The notes under the pieces: generated by a model
Seen by the model: the letters and a program-made list of their open reading frames with translations, nothing else
Database searches by the model: none
Told to the model about the DNA's origin: nothing
Made by a program: the position numbers and the translations under genes
Shown: piece after piece, positions 4,955 to 29,981 of the stretch
Layout: every line of letters starts with the position of its first letter
Position numbering within the stretch: the stretch's first letter is position 1
Virus record (IMG/VR): IMGVR_UViG_3300050821_006390
Coordinates: 1-33,066 of that record
Length of the DNA stretch: 33,066 bases
Reading direction: 5' to 3' (one strand)
Source of the DNA: a virus

Positions 4955-7279
4955 ATGGGCGCCGACAAATTTCTAACCACAGTTTTCGATCAGGCACAAG
5001 GGGTTGTCTTAACCTGCAACGCGAGGTTCATCACCAGGCGGTGGAAACCCGGTGACAAGATCCCTGACGATCATGTGTATTTCTGCATCTCGACGGTCAG
5101 GGATCCCAACCCGCGGCAGCTGGTCGGGCTCAGCCGTAAGGCACAAGATCTGGTTCTGACCTATGACATCGTCCTCGATGATGTGGGCACTAAAGTTTCA
5201 CGTGAAACATTGGCTGGCCTCCTGGCGCCGTCCGAGCGGATCGAAACCTCCGAAGGCAACGAGCAATGGCATTATTTCCTCGAGGAGGGCGTTGAGCCCG
5301 CTCGAGCGGCGGCTCTTGTCGAGGCGCTTGCGGCGAAGGGGCTGACCGATCCAGGCGCCAAGGGCGCCGCGCGGGTCATGCGCTTTCCCGGCTCATTGAA
5401 CAGCAAATACGATCCGCCTTTCGTGGCGCGCTCCCTGGGCGGCACCGGCGAATATCACAGCTACACCGACATCTGCCGCGGCCTGGGGGTGGTGCCCACC
5501 GACACGCCGGCGCTCAACATCAGCCTGCCGGTGCTGCCCGACGGCATGACAGATCCCGTGGTCGCCATCCTGGCCGAGGAAGGCCTGATCCTCGGGCCGC
5601 CTAATTCCTCGGGTTGGATTCCCATCACCTGCCCCCTGGAGCACGAGCACACCGGCGAGATCGATCATGGCACCGACTACAAGCCCGGCATGCCGGGGGT
5701 ATTCAAGTGCCTGCATTCGCATGGCGAGCTGCTGCCGACGTCGTGGTTCAGGGACTGGCTCAGGGAGCGCCGGCCCGATGCTGACCTGTCGCTGATCCCA
5801 GGGGAGGCGCTCAAGGCGATCGGCAGGAAGCTGGCGAGCGTGCTGGGGCCTGTTCCGGCCCAGGATGGGGCAAAGGCCCCGGCCGGGTCGGAAGACGCTG
5901 TAGGGCTCGTTGTAGGCGACCTGCATCATCATGAGCTGCGCTATGTCGCCCAGATGGGACAGTGGTTCCGCTGGGACGGCTGCCGATGGGCCGAGGATCG
6001 CACGATCGAGGTGTTCGACCTGATCAGGCCCTATGTCCGGGCGGCGGCGTTCGGGCACAAGAGCGAAGGCCAGCAGCGGGCCGCGGCGCGGGCCGCCATC
6101 GTGGCTGGCGTGGAGAAATTCGTGCGCTCGGACAGGCGCATCGCCGCCGTGGTAGGGGATTTCGATGACGAGCCGTATCTGCTCAATACGCCAGACGGCA
6201 TTGTGGATCTCATGACAGGCGAAATGAGCGGCTGCGATCCGGCCAGAATGTGCACCAAGAGCACGGCGGTGGGGCCTGCGGCGCCCGGCACGCCGGCGCT
6301 CCGGTTCACCCAATTCCTCATGGAGATCACCGGCATCGATGCCGATGCGGCCGAAAAACGCAGTTATATGCAGCGGTTAGCGGGATATGCCCTGGTTGGC
6401 GACAATCCCGAGGAGGCGTTTTTCTTCGGCGCCGGCACGGGGGCCAATGGCAAGAGCGTGTTCATGAACACGCTGCGTGGCATCATGGCGGATTATTGCG
6501 TGGTGGCATCGAGCGAGCTGTTTTTGGCTTCACGCATGGAGCGCCATCCGACGGAGCTGGCCGAACTGCGCGGGGCGAGGCTTGTGATAGCATCGGAACT
6601 CGACCAGGGACAGCGCTGGAACGAGGCCAGGATCAAGTCCCTGACAGGCGACACGCACCTCAAGGGCAGACGCATGCGGGAGGATTTCTTCGAATACAGG
6701 CGGTCGTTCAAGCCCTTCGTGGTCGGCAATTACAGGCCGAACCTGCGCAACGTCGACGAGGCGATGCGCCGGCGTATGCACCTAGTACCGTTCACGGTCA
6801 CGATCGCACGCGAGCAGCGCGAGGCAGGGCTCACGCGGGCGCTGGAACAGGAATGGCCCGCCATCCTGCGCTGGGCGATCGAGGGTTGCCTCGAGTGGCA
6901 GAGGATCGGCCTGGCGCCACCAAAATGCATCACTGCGGCGAGCGAGGAGTATATGTCCGAGCAAGATCTGATCGGGCAATGGCTGGTGGATGATTGCCAG
7001 ATCGATCGAAGCGCCGAGACGTCGTCGACTGAACTATTCATGGCGTGGCGCGACTGGGCGAACCGCAGAGAGGAATATGTGGGCACGCACAAATATTTCG
7101 TGGGGAAGCTGCAGGACAGGGGTTTCGATCTGCATCACGGGCGTGCGGGAAACGTCTTCAGGGGGCTCAAGATCAACAAACTGGGCTTCGGAACAACGGA
7201 TAAAGTAGTGCCCCTATTGAGCCGCCAGCGCCTGCGGCGGGATGACAAGGACGATGAAAACGATGGTGCCGACACATGA
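4955..7279 (+). CDS. Replicative primase-polymerase / SF3 helicase (P4 alpha / D5-like)
   Basis: This 774-residue protein is likely the phage replication initiator. The N-terminal part resembles an archaeo-eukaryotic primase (prim-pol): acidic residues in LTYDIVLDDVGTK (about 69-80), EGNEQWHYFLE (about 100-110) and the hallmark RFPGSLNSK (about 143-151). The C-terminal half is a superfamily 3 helicase of the P4/D5 type. It has Walker A GAGTGANGKS at 492-501, a Walker B-like LVIASELD near 545, and sensor sequence FVVGNYRPNLRNVDEAMRRR near 590. A single protein can thus prime and unwind, as in phage P4 alpha. The fusion removes the need for separate primase and helicase genes, and none are seen. 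It is followed by a structured non-coding stretch that may be the origin. Confidence 0.9.
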   Translation: MGADKFLTTVFDQAQGVVLTCNARFITRRWKPGDKIPDDHVYFCISTVRDPNPRQLVGLSRKAQDLVLTYDIVLDDVGTKVSRETLAGLLAPSERIETSEGNEQWHYFLEEGVEPARAAALVEALAAKGLTDPGAKGAARVMRFPGSLNSKYDPPFVARSLGGTGEYHSYTDICRGLGVVPTDTPALNISLPVLPDGMTDPVVAILAEEGLILGPPNSSGWIPITCPLEHEHTGEIDHGTDYKPGMPGVFKCLHSHGELLPTSWFRDWLRERRPDADLSLIPGEALKAIGRKLASVLGPVPAQDGAKAPAGSEDAVGLVVGDLHHHELRYVAQMGQWFRWDGCRWAEDRTIEVFDLIRPYVRAAAFGHKSEGQQRAAARAAIVAGVEKFVRSDRRIAAVVGDFDDEPYLLNTPDGIVDLMTGEMSGCDPARMCTKSTAVGPAAPGTPALRFTQFLMEITGIDADAAEKRSYMQRLAGYALVGDNPEEAFFFGAGTGANGKSVFMNTLRGIMADYCVVASSELFLASRMERHPTELAELRGARLVIASELDQGQRWNEARIKSLTGDTHLKGRRMREDFFEYRRSFKPFVVGNYRPNLRNVDEAMRRRMHLVPFTVTIAREQREAGLTRALEQEWPAILRWAIEGCLEWQRIGLAPPKCITAASEEYMSEQDLIGQWLVDDCQIDRSAETSSTELFMAWRDWANRREEYVGTHKYFVGKLQDRGFDLHHGRAGNVFRGLKINKLGFGTTDKVVPLLSRQRLRRDDKDDENDGADT

Positions 7280-7281
7280 GT

Positions 7282-7383
7282 GTGAAGGATGTGAACGGTA
7301 TGCTGTATGATACGTATACGCGCAGGCGCGCGCGCGCGCGCACATGAATACGTCCACATGCGATAACCCTTCACATCCTTCAC
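7282..7383 (+). repeat. 14-bp inverted repeat flanking an alternating (GC)8 tract; candidate replication origin
   Basis: Arm 7282-7295 (gtgaaggatgtgaa) and arm 7370-7383 (ttcacatccttcac) are perfect reverse complements, 74 bases apart. Between them lie the alternating sequence tacgtatacgcgca (7311-7324) and (GC)8 at 7326-7341 running into acatg. Such alternating purine-pyrimidine DNA tends to adopt left-handed Z form under supercoiling. Its place just after the initiator-type primase/helicase makes it a candidate origin. It could instead be a transcription attenuator. Confidence 0.6.
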
Positions 7384-7396
7384 GGCGGTAGCGAGC

Positions 7397-7402
7397 AAGG
7401 AG
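7397..7402 (+). promoter_or_regulatory. Strong ribosome-binding site for the gene at 7409
   Basis: AAGGAG lies six bases before ATG 7409. It stands out because most genes here start by stop-start overlap without a clear Shine-Dalgarno site. It therefore marks a fresh translational start after the non-coding gap. Confidence 0.7.
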
Positions 7403-7408
7403 AGGACG

Positions 7409-7624
7409 ATGAGTGGAATAACGGCCGATCCAACGACTTTGATGAACCAGGCACCGATGACCATGCAGGTGTACATGGCTGAGTGTATTCGTATCGTCGA
7501 CGGCGTTTTTGGCGCCGGGTACGCGAAAAAGAATCCGCAATTATTGAGCGCCATGGTATTGGGCTGCGCTGTCGATTACAGTGGGGGCATAGTTGCCCGT
7601 GCAATTGAGATGCTGCAAACATGA
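7409..7624 (+). CDS. Hypothetical protein, 71 aa
   Basis: A 71-residue protein with a good ribosome-binding site (AAGGAG) and the first gene after the origin-like gap. It has a Met-rich N-terminal half (TTLMNQAPMTMQVYMAECIR) and a helix ending VARAIEMLQT. The family is not recognised. It may be a small cytoplasmic helical protein. It ends at an ATGA overlap with the helix-turn-helix gene. Confidence 0.75.
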   Translation: MSGITADPTTLMNQAPMTMQVYMAECIRIVDGVFGAGYAKKNPQLLSAMVLGCAVDYSGGIVARAIEMLQT

Positions 7625-7866
7625 CCCGCCAGCAGCAGCTCGAGCATTACCTCGAGCAGCTCGATCTCACCAATGTGGCACTCGCTCGAATGGCTGGCGT
7701 GGCGCCTTCATCCGTTCAGCGCTGGACAGCTGGTACGATCGAGCCGCCTCTCATGCTGCTGCGCCTGCTGCAATGCATGCTCCTGCTCAGGCAGCAGCAG
7801 GATGATGTTTCTGACATGCTGAAAAGCTGGGAGGTCGCAGATGATCAACCGGTCGCATCCGCCTAA
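7621..7866 (+). CDS. XRE-like helix-turn-helix protein, 81 aa
   Basis: An 81-residue protein with a helix-turn-helix of the Cro/XRE type at about residues 15-45: LTNVALARMAGVAPSSVQRW followed by TAGTIEPP. The recognition helix is SSVQRWTAG. The C-terminal half is a helix rich in Leu and Gln (MLLLRQQQDD). It is likely a small DNA-binding regulator acting on phage or host promoters; no operator could be identified. It sits just before the packaging genes, so control of the late switch is possible but unproven. It overlaps the following secreted-protein gene by 26 bases. Confidence 0.8.
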   Translation: MTRQQQLEHYLEQLDLTNVALARMAGVAPSSVQRWTAGTIEPPLMLLRLLQCMLLLRQQQDDVSDMLKSWEVADDQPVASA

Positions 7867-19550: not shown

Positions 19551-21844
19551 TGGCACCCCCGCTCGACGCCGGCCTGGTCCCCAGTTCAGCCGAGGATGAC
19601 GGCCCGCTCGAGGTCGAGCTTCTGGACCACGAGCCGGGCGAGGATAGGCCTGTCACCGATGATGACGGCAATATCCTGCACATCGAGCATGCCGATGGCG
19701 AGATCACCGTCAGCGTCGATGGCAATCCGATCGCCCGTCTCAACGACAATCCCAACCCGCCCAAGTGGTTCGACAATCTGGTCGATCACATCGATCGGAT
19801 GCAGCTCGGCATCATCTGCAACGACCTGATCGATGGCGTGAAGCAGGACATCGAGAGCCGCACCGAATGGATGGACCAGCACGTCCAGGCCCTGAAGATG
19901 CTGGGCTGGAAGCTCGAAGTGCCGAACCAGACCAGCGATGCCGCCGACGGTGCGGTCGACGGCACGTCGACGGTGCGGCATCCGATGCTGCAGGAAGCGG
20001 TGCTGCGTTTCTGGGCCAATGCTGATGCCGAGATGCTGCCGGCCGACGGTCCGGTCAAAGTACGCGACGACGACAACAATGGCGACACGCCGCGTGATCA
20101 GCTGGCAAACGCCTACATGACCGATTTCAACCACTTTCTGACAGTGGTGGCCAAGGAATTCCAGCCTGACACATCGCGCATGCTGTTGAAGGTCGGCTTT
20201 GGCGGCGCCGGTTTCAAGAAAGTCTATTACTGCCCGCAACGCAATCGCCCGGTCTCCGAATCGGTCGACGTCGAGGATCTGATCGTCAGCAACACGGCGA
20301 CCAGTCTGGAGACGGCCCGGCGCATTACCCATCGCATCATGATGGCGCCCAACACCGTGAAGCGCATGCAGGTGCTGGGTATCTATGCCGACATGCCGCT
20401 CGGCATACCGGCCGAGGCTGACTATGATCCCCTGAAGGAGGAGAAGGCCGCGCAGCAGGGTGTCCGCATCTCGACCATGCGCGCGGAGGATCGCGACCGC
20501 GAAATCTGGGAGATCTATTGCGAGCGCAACATTGCGGGTTTCGAGCACAAGAAGGGGCTCGAGGTGCCCTACCGCATCACCATCGATTATTCGAGCAAGC
20601 AGGTGCTGGCGGTGGTGCGCAACTACGACAAGGGCACCGAGCAGCTGCCGATCCCGTTGATCCCCTTCGTGATGTACACCTTCGTGCCGAATTTCGGCTT
20701 CTGGCCGATCGGCCTGCTGCACATCATGGCCAACATGACGAACGCCAGCACGGCGGCGTGGCGTATCATGCTCGACAACGGCATGTTCGCCAATTTCCCC
20801 GGTTTCCTGATCGCCCAGGCCGGTATGCGGCAAGAGACGTCGGTCATCCGCGTGGCGCCGGGCACAGGCGCTGCGGTCAATACCAACGGCATGCCGATCA
20901 AGGATGCCGTGATGCCGCTGCCTTACAAGACCGAGGGCCAGGCAGCGCTTATGTCGCTCAACCAGGACATCGTGGGCCAGGCGCAGCGGGTCGGCATGAC
21001 GGCCGAGCTGCCGGTGTCGGAGGGCCGCGAGGACACGCCTGCCACTACCATGCTGGCGATGATCGAACAGGCGCAGAAGCAGCTGATGGCCGTGCACAAG
21101 GGCCTGCATCGATCCCAGGCCGAGGAATTCAATAAGATCGCCGATGTCTTTCGGAAGCATCCTGAGAGTTTTTGGCAGTGCAACAAACGCCCGGCCCATC
21201 CGTGGGACGAAGAGACGCTTCTGCGCGCGCTCGATGACTGCAACCTGGTGCCGCGGAGCGATCCCAACACCGCTTCGCAAATGCATCGGTTAGTCAAGGT
21301 CGCTGCGCTGAAATTCCTCGCCAGCACCAATCCGCAGCAGTGGGACAATATCGCGATCGATACCGCCGCGGTCGAGGCGATCGGCTTCAGCAATCCGACG
21401 CGCTTCTTCGCGCCGCCACAGGCGATGACCCAGCCGTCGCCCGAGGATGCCGCCAAGAATCGCGAGCTCGACATCAAGCAGGCGTTGGCGCAGGCCCAGA
21501 TGGTGAAGGCGCAGTCGAGCGCCCAGAAGGATCAGGCGACGGCCGGTATCGCCAACCAGAAGTTCCAGCTCGACAGCGTGCTGGGCGAAGGCGACATGAA
21601 GATCAAAGCAGCCAAGACGCAAGGCGAGCTGGCGCTTGATCAGCGCAAGGCTGACGATGCACGCGAGAAGGACTTGATTGCCGAGCGCGTCCAGCTGGTC
21701 GACGTCGCCCAGAACCTTGCCGTGCATCCCGAGAGCGCGGCCCTGGTCGAACCTTTGATCCGTCCGGCATTCGAGGATGTGCAGCGCCGCCAGAACGAGC
21801 ATGAGGCTAAGAAGACGGCCGGTCTTGTGCCGCCGGGTGTGTGA
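19550..21844 (+). CDS. Portal protein
   Basis: A 764-residue portal, forming the ring at one vertex of the head through which DNA is packaged and to which the tail attaches. Length and layout fit the large podovirus-type portals (P22 gp1 class). Typical features are a mixed N-terminal wing region (FLTVVAKEFQPDTSRMLLKV, FKKVYYCPQRN), clip/stem sequence around YTFVPNFGFWPIGLLHIMAN, then MSLNQDIVGQAQRVG, and a long helical C-terminus rich in Ala, Gln and Lys (ALAQAQMVKAQSSAQKDQAT) that could form the barrel. The first 60 residues are acidic and may be flexible. It starts directly at the stop of paralogue C. Confidence 0.82.
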   Translation: MAPPLDAGLVPSSAEDDGPLEVELLDHEPGEDRPVTDDDGNILHIEHADGEITVSVDGNPIARLNDNPNPPKWFDNLVDHIDRMQLGIICNDLIDGVKQDIESRTEWMDQHVQALKMLGWKLEVPNQTSDAADGAVDGTSTVRHPMLQEAVLRFWANADAEMLPADGPVKVRDDDNNGDTPRDQLANAYMTDFNHFLTVVAKEFQPDTSRMLLKVGFGGAGFKKVYYCPQRNRPVSESVDVEDLIVSNTATSLETARRITHRIMMAPNTVKRMQVLGIYADMPLGIPAEADYDPLKEEKAAQQGVRISTMRAEDRDREIWEIYCERNIAGFEHKKGLEVPYRITIDYSSKQVLAVVRNYDKGTEQLPIPLIPFVMYTFVPNFGFWPIGLLHIMANMTNASTAAWRIMLDNGMFANFPGFLIAQAGMRQETSVIRVAPGTGAAVNTNGMPIKDAVMPLPYKTEGQAALMSLNQDIVGQAQRVGMTAELPVSEGREDTPATTMLAMIEQAQKQLMAVHKGLHRSQAEEFNKIADVFRKHPESFWQCNKRPAHPWDEETLLRALDDCNLVPRSDPNTASQMHRLVKVAALKFLASTNPQQWDNIAIDTAAVEAIGFSNPTRFFAPPQAMTQPSPEDAAKNRELDIKQALAQAQMVKAQSSAQKDQATAGIANQKFQLDSVLGEGDMKIKAAKTQGELALDQRKADDAREKDLIAERVQLVDVAQNLAVHPESAALVEPLIRPAFEDVQRRQNEHEAKKTAGLVPPGV

Positions 21845-24549
21845 TGGGCGACGAACGCGAAAATTTGGCGCAGAAAGCCATCGCGCACTTTGGCACGACG
21901 CATAATCCGGCTGAATCAGGTTATATTATGCCAGGTGGGCAGCATCTTGATCTGACAGGTCGGCACTACGCTACCGGCTACACGAACAAGCGTCCTAATC
22001 CGGGGCAGCCGGACTATCTTCGCGGTACACGCTCGGTCGATCATCGCGAACTACCGGATGAGTTGTCGCCGAAAGGTGGAACGGAAGGCATGTTCGATTT
22101 CATGCATCGTTCCGGTGCTGTACGACACATGCCTGAAAGCCCCGGCATATCGGCTGTGACGATGCCGACTGATGCGCAGTTGAAGGCGGCAGTACGCGCG
22201 CATGGTCGCGGCACTTTTTACGCTGACGCAGAACATCCGCATACGATGGAGACATTGGGCTCAGAAGAATTTGAGCGACCGACCGTCGAAAAACTTCGCG
22301 CGTTTTTTAAGAAACATCACGCACGACAGCAGAAAGCTGAAGGTGGTCCTGTCGATGACCCTGACCAACCGCAGCGTCAGCTCTCGCCGGTCGGGCTCTA
22401 CAGCCATGCCGCCGACGTTGTTCAGAAATTCCCGCAGATGCGCGGAACTCCTGCTCAGTTTAAGGCGATGCTCACCAAGCAGGGCGTCAAGCCCGACGAG
22501 TTCAAATACTCCAATTACGATCAGGCTTTCGCCGGCAAGCCGATGGTGACCAAAGATGAACTGACGCAGCACTTCAATGCCAGCGTGCCGCCGGTCCGGG
22601 AGACAACGCTTACTAACACCCCGGCTCGCGAACTGGCCGCTCGTGCAGGGCGCCCATGGGAATCTTTGACCGAAGCTGAGCGCGACCGTTTCAGGGACGA
22701 ACACGAATCACACCCGTCTACCAAATTCGATCAATACACCCTCCCCGGCGGCACGAACTACCGCGAAACGCTGCTGCATCTGCCGCCCAAGTATGGCACA
22801 TGGATCAATGGTGATCCTGTCACCGCAGAAGATATCGCGACGCCACATGGACGTGATACTGCGGCGCGGGTGGCTGGCTACAGTGACGACACCTATAAGT
22901 CTGGGCACTGGGACACGCCCAACGTGCTCGCCCACCTGCGCATGTCCGATCGCGCGCTGCCGGGCGGCCAGAAGGCGCTGCACCTGGAGGAGCTGCAATC
23001 GGATTGGGCACAGGAGGGACGGAAGAAAGGATTTAAGGGCAGTTACGGTTCGAACGATCTGGCTGAAGCAACTGACCCGCACAATATGAGTGCGAGAGAT
23101 CGCGACACCCACTGGTATATTCGCTCGCCTGACAACGTGTACCGCATCGCTAAGGAGAAACATCCGACGTTAGCTGGTGCAATGGCTTACATTCGTCGAG
23201 AAAAACCGATCAATGCTAGCGGCGTGCCGGACGCGCCCTACGTCGACAGCACGCAGAAGTGGGTCGATCTCGGCCTGAAGCGAGCGTTGTACGAGGCGGC
23301 GAAGGGCGGCTACCACAAGCTGGTGATGACGCCGGGCGAGGAGCAGGCGAAGCGCTACGATCTCAGCAAACATGTCAACGGTGTTCGCTATTTCCCTGAG
23401 ACACAAAATCTTCAGGCGACGTTGCATAACGGGCGCAAAGGCATTGATGAGCACAATGTAAAACCTGAAGACGTGGAAAAATTCGTCGGCAAGGATGTCG
23501 CCAAGAAATTACTCGCTGTACCGGCAAAGCAAACCGGCATGTTTCCGTATCCGCATCATTTTCTCGGCGGTCTCGATCTCAAAGTCGGCGGCGAGGGCAT
23601 GAAGGCATTTTACGACAAGATGCTGCCGGCTGCGCTGGAGAAGCTCGCAAAGAAGCACGACCCCGAGGCGAAGGTACACCTACATGGCCAGAAGGCATCG
23701 GTCGATGCGCGACCACGCTCGTGGGGACATTTCAGCGACTGGGTGAGTAGTCATCCCGAGCATCAAGGCATGACGAGGGATCGTCAATATCAGGCGTGGA
23801 CCAGTGGTCGCAGGAGTCCGTTGGTTAAAGAATTTCTTGATAAGGATAAGGCGGAAGCCGGTCTGCACTCCCTCGATATCACGCCGAAGATGCGCGAGAG
23901 CATCCTTAAGGGCCAGCCGGCCTATGCCGGGGGCGGCAAGGTCGAAACACCGGAGGTCGCCGCACCAGAGCCTGCGGAAACGCCAAAGGCCCCGATCGTA
24001 TCGTTGGCCGATCTGAAGCGCGTCGGCGAGACCTGGGGCTATAACAGCCCGCATTTCATCAAGGCGCGCGAAGCCCATGACAAGCCGCCCGAACCGGAAC
24101 TAAAGGCCGACGGCGCCCCGGTCGAGGCCGAGAAACCCGAGGAACGTATCGTCGGCGCCCTCAAGGACTGGCTGCGAGAGGAACGCGCGACAGGTGGCGT
24201 AGTCGGGCTCGTCCCGCATATGCATGCCGGTGCTGGCAGCGGCGCCGGGCGACTCGAGAAGATGCGCCGCCAGAGCGGCGATTTGAGCCCAAATCAGAAG
24301 CTTCTGCCGCTCGATGGCGATCCGCTGATTGAAAAAGCCCTGGCATTGGCTCAGGATGCGACCGCCTACAAGAACGGTGGTGCGGTGGAGAAGGCTGCCG
24401 ACAAGCAGGAGCTGGAGAAGCTGGAGGCGACGATCGCCCGCCAGGGCGATGCCATCGACAAGCTGACCAGGCTCCTGTCGGCGCCGCAGATCGTCGAGCG
24501 TGACGAGAACAACCGCATCAAGAGGATATACCGGGAGATGCCGAAGTGA
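21844..24549 (+). CDS. Large polyvalent virion-associated protein, 901 aa
   Basis: A 901-residue modular protein. Residues about 380-600 hold a domain I know from large phage proteins: LEELQSDWAQEGRKKGF (about 381-397), WVDLGLKRALYEAAKGGYHK, VMTPGEEQAKRYDLSKHV, and GGLDLKVGGEGMKAFYDKML (from 575). It occurs in polyvalent proteins that are often carried in the virion and may be ejected with DNA; activity is unknown. Short Gly-Gly motifs (AEGGPV, YAGGGKV, ATGGVV, KNGGAV) are scattered along it. The block HAGAGSGAGRLEKM (24223-24264) recurs in the Gly/Pro-rich protein at 29112. The C-terminus is a coiled coil (KQELEKLEATIARQGDAIDK). The gene is somewhat less GC-biased in its first third. Start ATG 21844 (TGATG) was preferred to GTG 21841. 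Confidence 0.7.
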   Translation: MGDERENLAQKAIAHFGTTHNPAESGYIMPGGQHLDLTGRHYATGYTNKRPNPGQPDYLRGTRSVDHRELPDELSPKGGTEGMFDFMHRSGAVRHMPESPGISAVTMPTDAQLKAAVRAHGRGTFYADAEHPHTMETLGSEEFERPTVEKLRAFFKKHHARQQKAEGGPVDDPDQPQRQLSPVGLYSHAADVVQKFPQMRGTPAQFKAMLTKQGVKPDEFKYSNYDQAFAGKPMVTKDELTQHFNASVPPVRETTLTNTPARELAARAGRPWESLTEAERDRFRDEHESHPSTKFDQYTLPGGTNYRETLLHLPPKYGTWINGDPVTAEDIATPHGRDTAARVAGYSDDTYKSGHWDTPNVLAHLRMSDRALPGGQKALHLEELQSDWAQEGRKKGFKGSYGSNDLAEATDPHNMSARDRDTHWYIRSPDNVYRIAKEKHPTLAGAMAYIRREKPINASGVPDAPYVDSTQKWVDLGLKRALYEAAKGGYHKLVMTPGEEQAKRYDLSKHVNGVRYFPETQNLQATLHNGRKGIDEHNVKPEDVEKFVGKDVAKKLLAVPAKQTGMFPYPHHFLGGLDLKVGGEGMKAFYDKMLPAALEKLAKKHDPEAKVHLHGQKASVDARPRSWGHFSDWVSSHPEHQGMTRDRQYQAWTSGRRSPLVKEFLDKDKAEAGLHSLDITPKMRESILKGQPAYAGGGKVETPEVAAPEPAETPKAPIVSLADLKRVGETWGYNSPHFIKAREAHDKPPEPELKADGAPVEAEKPEERIVGALKDWLREERATGGVVGLVPHMHAGAGSGAGRLEKMRRQSGDLSPNQKLLPLDGDPLIEKALALAQDATAYKNGGAVEKAADKQELEKLEATIARQGDAIDKLTRLLSAPQIVERDENNRIKRIYREMPK

Positions 24550-24875
24550 GGAGCAAGCGGGACCAGCAGGGTGAATTGCTCATCGATCACACTTTCTCGC
24601 CGGGCATCACGCCGGAATGGGCTGCGGCGCATGGCGCCACGGGGCCGGTTGTCGGCGCCGGCAAGAAGTACGAAAGCGGTCTTATAAACTGCAAGCATTG
24701 CGGCAGCGATGTCCTGCTGCATCCGCAGCGCATGCGCGAGCGCGAGTGGTGCTGGACCTGCGACGCATACATCTGCGACAACTGTGGACTGCTCCGCAAA
24801 CTGGGCGATTATACGCACAAGACGGCGCGCCAGCAGATGGAAGAGGTTTTCAACCGATACCAGAGGAGTTTCTGA
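24546..24875 (+). CDS. Zinc-finger phage protein, GTG start
   Basis: A 109-residue protein with three CxxC pairs: C49/C52, C69/C72 and C77/C80 (CKHCGSD, CWTCDAYICDNCG), enough for one or two zinc sites. I recognise the plan (KRDxxG-xLxIDHxxSPG at the N-terminus, then the Cys block) from small proteins encoded beside portal and capsid genes of many phages. Their function is not established. GTG 24546 overlaps the upstream stop (GTGA) and gives the conserved start. It probably acts in assembly or as a virion component, by position. Confidence 0.8.
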   Translation: MRSKRDQQGELLIDHTFSPGITPEWAAAHGATGPVVGAGKKYESGLINCKHCGSDVLLHPQRMREREWCWTCDAYICDNCGLLRKLGDYTHKTARQQMEEVFNRYQRSF

Positions 24876-24878
24876 ACC

Positions 24879-25397
24879 ATGGGTACATCAGTCTTTGAAA
24901 CCGGCGCCCTTACGACCGGCGCGGGCACCGCCGATAACGTCTCGCTCACCACGCTCAATTTCATGGCTATCCAGGGCGGCACGGCCACGCAGGCGAGCTT
25001 CGTGGAAGAGGTCTACATGGGCGGCCAGGCCACGGCTTCGGCGCCTACCATCATGCTGCTCGGCCGCGACAGTACCGTGGGCGTCGGCATGGTGGCGCTC
25101 GTGACGCCGAATTCCTTCGGTCTGACCAATCCGTCGGGTGCCGTCGTCACGGCCATACCGGTTGCCTTCGTCACGGCCAGCGGCACGCAGCCCATCCGGT
25201 CCAATTCGGTGACGCTCGCCAAGAAGAATTTCACGTTCAATTCGTTTGGGGGCATCGTCAAAGCCTCCTACCAGAACACCCAGGATCGTTTCGGCATCAT
25301 CGGCAGCACGGCGTCGCTGGGCGAGCTTTCGCTCTCGGCTTTCACCGGCACGACGACCAGCTCGATTGGCGCACACATCATCATCGAGGTCATGTGA
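24879..25397 (+). CDS. Probable virion surface protein (beta-rich), 172 aa
   Basis: A 172-residue protein made of Thr/Ser/Ala/Gly-rich beta strands (TSVFETGALTTGAGTADNVS, LGRDSTVGVGMVALVTPNSF, VAFVTASGTQPIRSNSVTLA). It ends in LSLSAFTGTTTSSIGAHIII. The composition is typical of phage head-decoration or other exposed structural proteins. A GAGGAG site (24863-24868) lies ten bases upstream of ATG 24879, suggesting higher expression than its coupled neighbours. It immediately precedes, and overlaps by four bases, a glycosyltransferase gene, which makes its many Ser/Thr residues candidate acceptor sites (inference). Confidence 0.7.
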   Translation: MGTSVFETGALTTGAGTADNVSLTTLNFMAIQGGTATQASFVEEVYMGGQATASAPTIMLLGRDSTVGVGMVALVTPNSFGLTNPSGAVVTAIPVAFVTASGTQPIRSNSVTLAKKNFTFNSFGGIVKASYQNTQDRFGIIGSTASLGELSLSAFTGTTTSSIGAHIIIEVM

Positions 25398-26242
25398 AAA
25401 TCTCCGTCATCGTTGCGACGCGCGGTCGTTCACAGCGTGCCGCCGGCGTGATCGAGTGCGCGCGCAGCTTCCTGTGCGGTGCGCACGACGTTCAGTTCAT
25501 CGTGGCAGTTGATACCGATGATCAGAAATCTGCCGCTTATTTTTCCGAGTATCCTGGTGTAACCCTCTATATGCAGCCGAGACCGATCGGCGTCGGCGAC
25601 GTCTGGAACCGGGCCGCGAAGGCCTATCCGGCGGATTTCTACTTGGCGCTTCCCGACGATGCCTGGATCTGCACGCCATATTGGGACGCCATCATGATCC
25701 AGATCCTGCTGGTCGGGCCGCATCCCATTCCGGTGAAGCTCGGCATCGTCGGCTGGATGGACCCCCTGCAGCCGGCCATCTGCTCCATTTTCGGCATGAC
25801 GCAGAAGTGGGTCGACGTGAATGGTCACATCTTCGACCCGCGCTATCCGTTCTGGTGGGGCGACGTAGCCCTCGTCGAGACGGCGATCTTCGCCACGGCA
25901 GAGGGCATGCCGGGGACTGATCAGCTCAAGTTCGCGAGCCAGCCGGGCAACTTCAACCCGCATCTACGCGACATGGAATTGTGGTGGGCGTTTTTCGCTG
26001 CAACACGCCACGAGCGGATCGCGACGGCGCGGCGTCTCGGAATGCCTCCGGTCGATGACGACATGATGGAGCTCCTGGTCAAGGAGTGCGAAGAGCGCGA
26101 CGCGATGGGTCTTCGCCAGATACCGCAGGTTCTCGCCACGATTCATCATCCGGCGCCGCCGACGAAGGAATACCTGATCGCCAAGGCGCAGGCCGAGGAA
26201 TATTTGCGGAATGCGGGCATCGAGGCACAACGAGCTGCCTGA
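25394..26242 (+). CDS. GT2-like glycosyltransferase
   Basis: A 282-residue protein of the GT-A fold. The N-terminus ISVIVATRGR (3-11) is the classical family 2 opening. IVAVDTDD (36-43) and LALPDDAW (84-91) supply the acidic DxD-type sites that bind the nucleotide sugar through a metal. The middle has GIVGWMDP and WWGDVALVE. It should transfer a sugar from a nucleotide donor in the cytoplasm; no membrane segment is present. GTG 25394 overlaps the stop of the surface-protein gene (GTGA) and its own stop overlaps the SPRY-like gene by one base. Such coupling makes modification of a virion protein a fair guess, as does assisting host-surface change. Confidence 0.85.
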   Translation: MKISVIVATRGRSQRAAGVIECARSFLCGAHDVQFIVAVDTDDQKSAAYFSEYPGVTLYMQPRPIGVGDVWNRAAKAYPADFYLALPDDAWICTPYWDAIMIQILLVGPHPIPVKLGIVGWMDPLQPAICSIFGMTQKWVDVNGHIFDPRYPFWWGDVALVETAIFATAEGMPGTDQLKFASQPGNFNPHLRDMELWWAFFAATRHERIATARRLGMPPVDDDMMELLVKECEERDAMGLRQIPQVLATIHHPAPPTKEYLIAKAQAEEYLRNAGIEAQRAA

Positions 26243-26859
26243 TGAGCCGGATACTTTTTATCCAGCAAGCTGTCGTTACCTGGAGTGCCGTGAACAAGGA
26301 TTCACGGGTGACTTTATCCAGCGGCAATCTGGTCGCAACCTCGGACAACTCGGCCGGAACACCGGCGGAGAGCGGGCGAACGGACACCGCCATCAGTGGG
26401 AACGTCTACCTCGAGATCGTGGAAACCCAGGCTGACACGAACAGTTTTACTCAGGTTGGCTTCGGCAATTCGTCTATGGTGATTTCGGCCACACTCGGGT
26501 TCGACGCGAACCTCACCATCGGTTTTTTCCACAGCGGCGCGGTCCAGCTCAACAGCACTCAGATCGCGACGATCCAGGGCTATATTCCCGGCCAGGCGCT
26601 CGGGTTTGCCATCAATAACGGGCTTCGTCTGATCTGGATGCGGACAGCCGGCGGCAACTGGAACAACGACATAGCAGCCAATCAGAACCCGGTCGGCAAC
26701 GTTGGCGGCATAAGTTTCTCTGCCATCACAGGCGGCATCTTCCCGGCTTACACCATGGTCGGCGATCCGACTTCACCGGCAATCATTACAGCACAGTTTC
26801 GCGCAGCATCTTTTTCAAATCCCGCACCGTCCGGTTACGCAGCCTACGGCGGTCCGTAA
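26242..26859 (+). CDS. SPRY-domain-like virion protein, 205 aa
   Basis: A 205-residue protein with a SPRY/B30.2-like pattern. VTWSAVNKDSRVTLSSGN opens the domain, then GNVYLEIVE (53-61), FTQVGFGNSS, TIGFFHSGAV (92-101), PGQALGFAIN (117-125) and LRLIWMRTAGGNWNN, and FPAYTMVG. It ends QFRAASFSNPAPSGYAAY, close to the usual 'F ... P.P.GY' finish. In phages such beta sandwiches are part of tails, fibres or head decoration and probably bind proteins or sugars. It follows the GT2-like gene with a one-base overlap, so binding or carrying its product is conceivable. The first 10 residues may be a targeting or docking segment. Confidence 0.72.
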   Translation: MSRILFIQQAVVTWSAVNKDSRVTLSSGNLVATSDNSAGTPAESGRTDTAISGNVYLEIVETQADTNSFTQVGFGNSSMVISATLGFDANLTIGFFHSGAVQLNSTQIATIQGYIPGQALGFAINNGLRLIWMRTAGGNWNNDIAANQNPVGNVGGISFSAITGGIFPAYTMVGDPTSPAIITAQFRAASFSNPAPSGYAAYGGP

Positions 26860-27504
26860 ATGGCTCTCTCGTTCGTCACCGCGGCGTCTTCTGTTACGGC
26901 GACCGTGGTCATGCCGGGCGGCATGGCGGCCGGCATGATCGCCGTTCTGTTCGATGAGGCTGTCAACAATACCACGACTGTTCCGACGTCCCTGATACCG
27001 ACCAACTGGTCGCTCTCGGCATCTTTTACCGCGGCGACGTTTAACTCGAACGCTTCGGGGGTCAGGTTCAATATATCTTGGAAGATCCTGGTCGGAACCG
27101 AGAGCGGTCAGACGATCACCGGGATGACGGGCATCGGCACGGGCAACATGGACAAGGTCTGCCTGGTTTTTTCCGGTACCGCAGGGGCTTTCGGAACGCC
27201 TCTTTCGGTTCTCGGCCAAGTTGGTTCGCCGCCTGTCACGGCCCAGGTCGTGGCAGCTGTCACGCCAGCAGGGGTCATGCTGGGCTGCAATACGGATTAC
27301 TTTGGCGGCACGCATACCAAGCTGGTGATGCTTCCGGCTGCGACAGCGACCCGTAATGATAACGCCTCGATGGAGGCAGGCTACGTCCTCTATACTGCCG
27401 CTGCGGTCAACAACAGGGTCAGCACCAGCGGCACGAGCGATGGCGCACTGGTAGGTCTCTGGGTTCCGTTCACTGACGTCCTGATGGGACAGGGGATCAT
27501 GTGA
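26860..27504 (+). CDS. Beta-rich virion-type protein, 214 aa
   Basis: A 214-residue protein rich in Ala, Val and Thr with alternating beta strands (ALSFVTAASSVTATVVMPGG, MIAVLFDEAVNN, WKILVGTESGQTITGM, GVMLGCNTDYFGG). Its form, a strand-rich domain with 'WKxLxxGESGxTITGM', resembles phage fibre or surface proteins of unknown role that often follow SPRY-like genes. It starts right after the upstream TAA and ends in a GTGA overlap with the repeat-protein gene. Function inferred from composition and place only. Confidence 0.65.
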   Translation: MALSFVTAASSVTATVVMPGGMAAGMIAVLFDEAVNNTTTVPTSLIPTNWSLSASFTAATFNSNASGVRFNISWKILVGTESGQTITGMTGIGTGNMDKVCLVFSGTAGAFGTPLSVLGQVGSPPVTAQVVAAVTPAGVMLGCNTDYFGGTHTKLVMLPAATATRNDNASMEAGYVLYTAAAVNNRVSTSGTSDGALVGLWVPFTDVLMGQGIM

Positions 27505-29096
27505 GCACGATCTTCAGATTTCCGTTCGTCTCCCGCGGCGTCCTGAGACCAGACAGCCGGCCCGCGAGGGACTGGCAAGACACGCTGATCACCTTTGGGC
27601 CGACGCCGTTTGCCCAGAACGATTGGGCTTTGCCGAAAAGCCTGACGCCGAAAGCGCCCGAGTTCCTGTCGCTCAACATCGCGGCGCTTTATTCGGTCGT
27701 CGTCGTCGTTACGAATCCTTTCGTACAGACTGATTGGCCCCCGCCCAAACCACCGCTTCTGGTCGCCAAGGAGAGCCCGGTTCAACCTCCGGCGACTCTT
27801 CAGATCGGTCCGACGCCTTTCAACCTAACGGACTGGCCGCAGGCCAAGAAGGTGCCGCTTCTGGCACCCGAAACGCCTCCGCTCAACGCAGCCGTTCATA
27901 TAGGTCCTACGCCGTTTGCCGAGTACGACTGGCCGCTGGCCGTACGCACTGGACTGTTGGCGAAGGAAACGCCGCCGATCAGTCCGGTGACGCAGATCGG
28001 TCCGACGCCATTTGCGCAGCGTGACTGGCCGTTGCCGGCGCGGACGGATAGTCCGCTTCCGCGGCATCGCGACCGGATCAATGACCTTCCGCGGCAGCTC
28101 CAGCAGACGCTTCCGCAGCTGCAATACGACTGGCCGCTTCCTCGAGCGCCGCTGCCGGCTGCCAAGGAAACGCCGCCTCTCAATGCGGCGGTCCAGATCG
28201 GGCCGACGCCGTTTGGTCTGGATGACTGGCCACTGGCGGTCCGATCGCTGCCGTCAGCGCCCGAGACGCCGCCGCTCAACATCGCGGTGTTAAATACCGT
28301 TGTCGTCGTCACGCAGCCCTTCGCGCTGCTCGACTGGCCCCTGGCTGCGCGACCGCTGCCGCGCGCACCCGAGACGCCGCCGCTCAGTCCGGTCCTCCAG
28401 ATCGGGCCGACACCTTTCGCGTTCTTCGACTGGACGCTGGCCAAAACGACGCCGCTGCTGGCGAAGGAAACACCGCCTCTCAACGCTGCAGTCCAGATCG
28501 GTCCGACGCCTTTCCATGCAACTGAATGGCCGCTGGCCAGAAGCCCGCTGCCGCCGGCGAAGGAAACGCCTCCCCTCAATCAGGTGCTGCAGATCGGGCC
28601 GACGCCGTTTGCGTTGCTCGACTGGCCATTGTCCAAGCGTGCATCTCCGGCGGCACCTGAGACGCCGCCGCTCAACATCGCGGCGATCAACACGGTCGTC
28701 ATTTCCGGGCCGCCTTTCTTCCAGCTCGACTGGCCGCTCGCCAAACTGCCATTGCCGCCGGCGAAGGAAACGCCGCCTCTCAATCAGGTGCTGCAGATTG
28801 GGCCGACGCCGTTCGCGTTCTTCGATTGGGCGCTGGCCAGGCTGACGCCGCTCGTTGTCGTCGATACGCCGCCGCCGACATCGGCACCCATACCGCCTGC
28901 CACAGGCGGTCCCAATTATTTGCGCCGCCTGATCCAGAGCGAGGCGGCACGCCAGCAGAGGCTTGCCGACCAGGACCGCGGCGTGCTGCGGACGATGTTC
29001 GCCGAAGGCGGCGCGGTCCAGGCCGACAGGAAGATCGAGGAAGCACGTTTGATCGAGGAAGAGGACGAGTATATCCTGCGGCACCTGGATCCTTAG
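27501..29096 (+). CDS. Tandem-repeat 'DWPLA...IGPTPF' virion protein, 531 aa
   Basis: A 531-residue protein. About 14 imperfect units run from residue 24 to about 450. The 32-residue unit reads DWPLA, then 9-11 variable residues, then (P/K)ETPPLN, then QIGPTPF and four residues to the next DW. Three units are 36 residues long and end in a hydrophobic variant (NTVVVVTQPF-type) at positions 2, 8 and 12; unit 6 is degenerate. DWP-type repeats occur in other phage structural proteins I have seen, but the combination here is unusual. The Pro-rich units probably form an extended, rod-like surface structure. The last ~70 residues are helical (LRRLIQSEAARQQRLADQDR) and contain the motif FAEGGAVQ seen in neighbours. 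GTG start, GTGA overlap. Confidence 0.8.
   Translation: MSTIFRFPFVSRGVLRPDSRPARDWQDTLITFGPTPFAQNDWALPKSLTPKAPEFLSLNIAALYSVVVVVTNPFVQTDWPPPKPPLLVAKESPVQPPATLQIGPTPFNLTDWPQAKKVPLLAPETPPLNAAVHIGPTPFAEYDWPLAVRTGLLAKETPPISPVTQIGPTPFAQRDWPLPARTDSPLPRHRDRINDLPRQLQQTLPQLQYDWPLPRAPLPAAKETPPLNAAVQIGPTPFGLDDWPLAVRSLPSAPETPPLNIAVLNTVVVVTQPFALLDWPLAARPLPRAPETPPLSPVLQIGPTPFAFFDWTLAKTTPLLAKETPPLNAAVQIGPTPFHATEWPLARSPLPPAKETPPLNQVLQIGPTPFALLDWPLSKRASPAAPETPPLNIAAINTVVISGPPFFQLDWPLAKLPLPPAKETPPLNQVLQIGPTPFAFFDWALARLTPLVVVDTPPPTSAPIPPATGGPNYLRRLIQSEAARQQRLADQDRGVLRTMFAEGGAVQADRKIEEARLIEEEDEYILRHLDP
27550..28890 (+). repeat. Imperfect tandem repeats of 96 or 108 bp
   Basis: The coding repeats are visible in DNA as recurring cagatcgg(t/g)ccgacgcc(g/t)tt and (g)aaacgccgcctctcaa blocks. 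Unit lengths are 96 bp (32 codons) or 108 bp (36 codons), about 14 in all. Third positions differ between copies while the motif is kept, so selection acts on the protein and the array is old rather than newly expanded. Confidence 0.8.
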
Positions 29097-29111: not shown

Positions 29112-29981
29112 ATGAGCGAAATGGCGAAGAAGGCACGCTCGGAGATGCGCGCCAAGGCAGTGCGCCTGGCGGGCGGCGGGGTCGGTTCCAACGATCCATA
29201 CAAGCCGGTCGATGCCAGCTCATGGGCGCCCCCGCCCGATGCGCTCGATGCCGGACGCAAGACCGGCGCACGGCCGATCAGGCCCCGCATCTACAAGCAC
29301 GGCGGTCATGTGCAGTTCGATCGCAATCCCGGCAAGGCGCTGCGCAAGCGCGCTTCCGGTGGACGCACCGGCACCGGACCGCTGTCGATGATCAACACGG
29401 CTGACGAGAACAAGAGCGCTTACGGCAGTTTCCACGAGGGCGGCTACAAGCGGGGCGGCATGCCGAAGGCTGGTGCATCTCTTGGCGATATCAAGAAAGA
29501 CGTGCACAAGCACGAGAGCCACATGCATGCCGGCAAGCCTAAGACCAAGTTGGCCAAGGGCGGCAAGGTCGATCCGGCGAAACACGAGAAGGGGGGCACC
29601 TATTACGGCGGCACGCGACCGGAAGGTGGCCGGATGCCTCGCGCCCACGGTGGTCGCGCTCGAGGAAAAACGAACATCAACATCGTGATCGCCCAGCCCA
29701 AGGCAGGCGGCGGCCCGATGGGCGCGCAGCAGATGCCGCCGCAGGGCGTCGTGCGTCCGCCAATGCCGCCGCCGCAGATGCAGCCGCCGGCTGGCGGTCC
29801 GCCGCCGATGCCGCCGCCGGGCATGGGCGGACCGCCTGGCATGCCGCCGGGAGTCGGGCCGATGATGCGCAAGCAGGGCGGCCGGGCCAATGCTGACGCC
29901 ATTCCGATCCGGCATGCCGGCGCCGGCAGCGGCGAGGGACGTCTGGAGCGCATGAAGATCCAGGAACGCTCGGCCCGGTAG
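29112..29981 (+). CDS. Gly/Pro/Met-rich disordered virion-type protein, 289 aa
   Basis: A 289-residue protein that looks mostly disordered. It has many short Gly-Gly motifs with basic or small flanks (KHGGHV, ASGGRT, YKRGGMP, AKGGKV, AHGGRA, KQGGRA). A Pro/Met/Gln/Gly-rich section (PPMPPPQMQPPAGGPPPMPP) and the end HAGAGSGEGRLERMKIQ follow. That last block (29913-29954) is nearly identical to one in the 901-residue protein. Lys-rich parts (KHESHMHAGKPKTKLAKGGK) could bind DNA or membranes. Such proteins are often packaged with the virion, but no role is proven. Its gene has AAAGGA ahead of ATG 29112. Position between the repeat protein and the GroES-like gene suggests a late virion gene. Confidence 0.65.
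   Translation: MSEMAKKARSEMRAKAVRLAGGGVGSNDPYKPVDASSWAPPPDALDAGRKTGARPIRPRIYKHGGHVQFDRNPGKALRKRASGGRTGTGPLSMINTADENKSAYGSFHEGGYKRGGMPKAGASLGDIKKDVHKHESHMHAGKPKTKLAKGGKVDPAKHEKGGTYYGGTRPEGGRMPRAHGGRARGKTNINIVIAQPKAGGGPMGAQQMPPQGVVRPPMPPPQMQPPAGGPPPMPPPGMGGPPGMPPGVGPMMRKQGGRANADAIPIRHAGAGSGEGRLERMKIQERSAR

Follow-up and report, generated by a model that had tools for sequence, protein, structure and literature searches.

The stretch of viral DNA that we analyzed, hereafter the window, covers positions 1 to 33,066 of IMG/VR record IMGVR_UViG_3300050821_006390 (33,066 nucleotides) and carries an open reading frame (27501-29096, GTG start) for a 531-residue protein made up largely of tandem repeats. 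This frame with its parts, the cassette genes and the two flanking genes described below lie on the plus strand, the gene calls being greedy ORF calls made in this analysis; the repeat ORF rests in addition on purifying selection in its 3′ half. Fourteen units form the array (27570-28862), each anchored by a DW motif starting at residue 24, 41, 78, 111, 143, 175, 210, 242, 278, 310, 342, 374, 410 or 442, which gives intervals of 17, 37, 33, 32, 32, 35, 32, 36, 32, 32, 32, 36 and 32 residues. The commonest unit length is 32 residues, and unit 3 has 33. PF..DW occurs 12 times, GPTPF nine times and ETPP nine times, compared with means of 0.06, 0.0005 and 0.05 and maxima of 2, 1 and 2 in 2000 residue shuffles; the repeat motifs are not a product of chance. 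At the DNA level, TRF detected a 96-bp period at 28374-28627. The array is free of cysteine, contains 21% proline and has a net charge of −4.

The motif positions and intervals bear out the first-pass annotation in its count of about 14 units, mostly of 32 residues, and in its placing of long VVVV..PF units at positions 2 (27621-27731, 37 residues, VVVVV-type), 8 (28224-28331, 36 residues, NTVVVVTQPF type) and 12 (28620-28727, 36 residues, NTVVISGPPF type). The higher-order period that it read into these positions did not hold up: in the homologue at locus L002 the long units stand at 1, 5 and 10, which rules out a fixed supra-period. Four features had been overlooked. Unit 1 is truncated to 17 residues; unit 3 has one residue more than the common length; unit 6 (28023-28127, 35 residues, RINDLPRQLQQTLPQLQY) is a third type, neither 32-residue nor VVVV-type, and the L002 protein has a similar segment close to its N terminus; and the protein ends in a charged, non-repeat segment of about 63 residues (approximately residues 469-531; 28905-29093), in which AF2 places a helix at 472-528 (pLDDT 50-74).

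The L002 protein (571 aa, 72% identity over aligned positions) is the closest homologue found, and the two arrays differ sharply in how well their halves correspond. The 3′ halves share 84% DNA identity with a dN/dS of 0.12, comparable to the 0.07 of the portal gene in the same pair, whereas the 5′ halves are rearranged and share only 58%. Within the 3′ half, same-position units of the window and L002 are 0.82-0.92 identical in DNA; units within the window array, with the truncated unit 1 omitted, are 0.54-0.85 identical. Because same-position units are more alike across phages than units are within the array, the 3′ half is old, stable and under selection, while the 5′ half turns over. By the same comparison, the ORF is evidently a genuine coding sequence under purifying selection in its 3′ half.

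The genes that recur around arrays of this kind encode a protein of about 110 residues with three CxxC pairs, a protein of about 170 residues ending in AHIxYEPY, adhesin-like proteins and the array itself, a combination that we refer to as the cassette. In the window it begins with a 109-residue treble-CxxC protein (24546-24875; CxxC..CxxC..CxxC, zinc-ribbon/FYVE-like), followed by a 172-residue putative jelly-roll protein (24879-25397), the most constant member, and a glycosyltransferase-like protein (25394-26242; PHROG 14945, E 6e-6). A glycosyltransferase-like gene also lies within the L002 cassette (5593-7082), together with a GIY-YIG/HNH homing-endonuclease-like gene. Next comes a 204-residue protein (26245-26859; start codon uncertain) that matches the functionally unannotated family PHROG 10080; its position is like that of a tagged L002 protein (7088-7729), but it bears no tag. 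Directly upstream of the array, a 214-residue adhesin-like protein (26860-27504), for which no Pfam or PHROG match was found, ends in the C-terminal tag DVLMGQGIM (27475-27501).

The cassette is flanked on the left by a 902-residue backbone protein (21841-24549) and on the right by a 289-residue backbone protein (29112-29981). The window backbone has a terminase and an SU10-type portal (PF23899), and three phages with portals 50-51% identical to it (L003, L005 and L008, the last being MW202675) share a gene row of portal, large protein or proteins, 289-residue homologue, protein of about 72 residues and GroES-like protein. In these portal cousins the cassette is absent and the 289-residue homologue follows the large protein directly, so that the window cassette (24546-29096) falls exactly between the two as a clean insertion. 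The cassette is therefore an accessory module, acquired or lost in the history of this backbone. In the same structural region, the window carries a GroES-like co-chaperonin gene (PF00166; 30247-30651) that is conserved in the portal cousins. The window's 289-residue protein and its counterparts in L003 (15798-16931) and L005 (13782-15674) are Lys/Gly-rich proteins that start MSE..SKSARAAMRAKAKRL and contain many GG motifs, a backbone trait common to this SU10-type group.

In other phages the genes flanking the cassette encode a head-tail adaptor (L046), T7-type tail tubular proteins (L051), a major head protein (L019) or terminase (L038), and the cassette adjoins SU10-type, T7-type or siphovirus-type structural genes. 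This distribution indicates a mobile cassette that is lodged within the structural regions of phages whose backbones are unrelated. In L046 a sialyltransferase-like gene (6438-7121; PHROG 4603, E 1e-44) adjoins the head-tail adaptor and the cassette.

Searching with the window and L002 sequences led to L007, whose distant array has the PFAQxDWPLPR anchor too. The DNA pattern for PFAQxDWPxP matched 42 IMG/VR stretches, almost all of which carry long arrays; members found with this pattern are biased towards it, and match counts of viral contigs from exact patterns are lower bounds. Several contigs share a single sampling site and do not count as independent. Across 58 nonredundant arrays, anchor spacing is concentrated at 30-37 residues, a register of about 33-34, with further peaks at the multiples 60-76 and 95-110; the register is therefore kept even in units that have lost the DWP motif. 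Units mostly span 30-37 residues, with a maximum of 42, and arrays reach 28 units. Over 201 units the anchor frequencies are 93% for P, 76% for F, 74% for Q, 95% for D, 95% for W and 83% for the second P of DWPxP, with D, W and the first P after W partly fixed by the search expression. Proline, tryptophan and cysteine make up 13%, 3.8% and 0.1% of family residues, respectively. The window array shares the features that define the family, having several PFxQxDWPxP anchors spaced by 30-37 residues or multiples thereof; the jelly-roll and treble-CxxC genes lie on the same contig (24546-25397), and an LMGQxxM/L-tagged protein is encoded upstream (27475-27501). The window protein thus belongs to a large, hypervariable and previously unnamed family of Pro/Trp-rich chains in uncultured phages, which we call DWP arrays.

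Neither the 531-residue window protein nor the other family members tested matched Pfam, PHROGs, NCBIfam or PDB sequences, apart from one 13-bit NCBIfam hit of the window protein that is due to chance. No match was found among 50,697 phage records by tblastn with four arrays, three jelly rolls and one treble-CxxC protein, and literature searches for the DWP motif or such modules returned nothing relevant. A relaxed pattern run over one genome per species of about 85,000 prokaryotes gave 20 matches, with arrays only on contigs of an Ignavibacteria MAG (L059 and L069) and a Deltaproteobacteria MAG (L062); the other matches look like chance, and the array-bearing contigs are possibly phage contigs binned with the MAGs. 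Most of our regular expressions for arrays, leaders and tags were written after examples had been seen, and their counts are descriptive; the jelly-roll scan, the contig-level profile search and the DNA scan for the tag provide independent checks.

The protein of about 170 residues was predicted with high confidence to be a jelly roll (pLDDT 92, 61 sequences). Its best structural matches are unnamed Caudovirales proteins (TM 0.65), and PDB matches to small viral jelly rolls are middling (Z 6-7.4, the best being VIA at Z 7.4). The contig-level profile search detected its gene in 37 of the 41 contigs carrying a DWP array or tag, the other four being records of 5-16 kb, and the jelly-roll scan found it in at least 172 viral contigs. 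The treble-CxxC gene is present at 62 of 73 jelly-roll loci. Where at least 4.5 kb of downstream sequence was available (46 loci), 30 loci have a strict DWP array, six more have a looser Pro/Trp-rich array and ten have no recognizable array; the array is therefore not obligatory for the cassette. The two-gene unit of treble-CxxC protein and jelly roll (24546-25397 in the window) has a wider distribution than the array. A jelly-roll profile run over 193 genomes of one phylum, a weak negative, matched only the MAG already known.

The proteins encoded upstream of array genes are otherwise dissimilar and share the C-terminal tag D-V/T-L-M-G-Q-x-x-M/L, which we found in the window (27475-27501), in L002 (7700-7726) and in L019, L045, L046, L049, L110 and L153-L157; variants elsewhere include DTLMGQAVM, DTLMGQIIL, DVLMAQACL and DVLYPQVWM, among others. 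Two array-type proteins, one in L011 and a short one in L110 (9166-9543), also end in the tag. The strict expression occurs at 21 of 1166 unique ORF ends compared with 0.035 expected, a count somewhat inflated by relatedness since all of these ORFs come from cassette-bearing loci, and internally it occurs twice in 275,866 residues. The DNA pattern D[TV]LMGQxx[ML]-stop matched seven contigs among 2.9 million. Two are known cassette loci, and four of the other five adjoin the treble-CxxC gene and/or an array; in the seventh (L157) the tag lies near the edge of the stretch and the contig also encodes the jelly roll. In L156 the stretch begins inside the matching ORF, which leaves the reading frame of that ORF unconfirmed. 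The tag is specific to the DWP cassette. We rejected the possibility that it is a ribosome-binding site, as synonymous codons vary while residues rather than bases are constant, and as the array gene may overlap it or lie as much as 3.5 kb away; the tag is therefore a protein signal. At the other side of this junction, the window array protein starts with the leader (V/M)STIFRFPFVSR (27501-27536), which matches the TI(F)RxP..xR start of many stand-alone DWP arrays. A tagged protein lies upstream of 11 of 15 arrays with a TI(F)RxP leader and 9 of 23 others (Fisher p 0.052), and the apparent association of leader and tag is suggestive only.

Recognizable domains are joined to the array in other phages. 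One L110 array protein starts with LamG_3 (E 2e-10), a LamG/ConA-like domain that matches baseplate-wedge and virion-structural PHROGs. Laminin_G_3 (PF13385) exceeded its curated cut-off in this protein and in one L099 neighbor; it did not do so in the window array protein, in which profile searches recognized no fibre or receptor-binding domain. L099 encodes a stand-alone LamG protein with a tag-like end, as well as a stand-alone Gly-rich domain that L089 has as a fusion with the array (57% over 167 aa).

On this genomic evidence, the most likely role of the cassette is to equip the virus particle with additional parts for binding the host. We tentatively propose, giving it slightly less than an even chance, that the DWP array supplies the chain in a mobile accessory adhesion module on the virion surface. 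The cassette products would be located on the virion, with the jelly roll anchoring the assembly to the particle. The array would form a flexible, extended multivalent chain rather than a rigid rod, and its W/F/P motifs would offer many copies of a site that binds either partner proteins of the virion or glycans on the host surface. The tagged adhesin may dock at the leader end of the chain or on the jelly roll, and array length and adhesin bodies may change fast because they are exposed to the host. The first-pass annotation had suggested a rod or lattice, perhaps a fibre or capsid-surface adhesin, and its adhesin-related virion part fits the late structural region, the adhesin-like neighbors and the fusion of an L110 array to a LamG/ConA-like domain. 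A more specific and more doubtful proposal is that the LMGQxxM/L docking tag on interchangeable adhesins, together with the TIFRxP..xR leader of the DWP chain or with the jelly roll, makes up a non-covalent connector through which phages of different architecture could swap adhesins onto a common multivalent chain, covalent adhesin-array fusions being an alternative solution.

The array could instead be the adhesin itself, with exposed Trp, Phe and Tyr on Pro-rich spacers binding host glycans many-fold and the neighboring genes encoding other adhesins. Conserved aromatics at fixed spacing between hypervariable spacers, the great variation of array length among phages and the rearranged 5′ half in close relatives would all suit such a role; yet PFxQxDWPxP is constant across very different backbones, which is more readily expected of a motif with an internal partner than of one that binds diverse host glycans, and we consider this explanation unlikely. 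It is quite unlikely that the array is an intracellular scaffold or assembly factor that, for example, collects adhesins and is absent from the mature virion. Short-motif arrays such as the DPW/DPF repeats of endocytic adaptors are typical multivalent scaffolds, no rigid fold was predicted for the array and the treble-CxxC neighbor is no obvious virion part, but a purely intracellular factor would hardly be expected to be joined covalently, as one array is, to a LamG-type domain with matches in virion proteins.

The rod, fibre or surface lattice of regular units favored by the first-pass annotation would account for a regular register of about 33 residues across up to 28 units, and nevertheless we rate it very unlikely. 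AF2 gave the window array a pLDDT of 31, with residues 1-470 under 50 and almost no secondary structure, from a two-sequence alignment that cannot separate disorder from lack of information; in addition, unit lengths vary, a supra-period is absent and 21% of residues are proline. Least likely of all, with only a slight probability, is that the cassette products have nothing to do with particle structure and instead alter the infected host (for example, by excluding superinfection at the envelope), which would suit a moron-like accessory cassette containing a glycosyltransferase-like gene in both the window and L002 but not its place among late structural genes or the fusion of one array to a baseplate/tail-like domain.

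If the adhesion-module reading is correct, the cassette would be a so far unnamed accessory module of the virion that is fairly common in uncultured phages, given at least 172 contigs with its jelly roll. The C-terminal tag would provide a simple sequence rule for flagging adhesins in phages whose receptor-binding proteins are otherwise unrecognizable, and the cassette would represent a naturally occurring connector system that lets particles of differing architecture exchange adhesins.

Tailed phages have accessory virion adhesion modules, including Ig-like decorations such as T4 Hoc and the head fibres of phi29. Like these, the DWP cassette is accessory, fast-varying, located in the late region and found on different backbones; unlike them, it combines DWP arrays with a jelly roll and tagged adhesins, has a presumed place on the virion and showed no sequence relation to either. 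The LamG/ConA-like lectin domains of phage baseplates and tails (PF13385; PHROGs 13163, 3545 and 8510) are fused to a DWP array in L110 and occur as stand-alone cassette neighbors with a tag-like end in L099 and L031; the adhesin-like proteins of the window have no such match, and the DWP array is an additional component unrelated to these domains. Single jelly-roll proteins, including small plant and picorna-like capsids and ExsF, resemble the 172-residue cassette protein in overall fold; there is no sequence relation, however, and Z scores below 8 may reflect a common arrangement only. The DPW/DPF repeats of epsin and Eps15 are multivalent short-motif arrays and, like the DWP array, form a low-complexity chain with regularly spaced short aromatic motifs, but they are eukaryotic and unrelated in sequence, and the analogy is one of working principle only.
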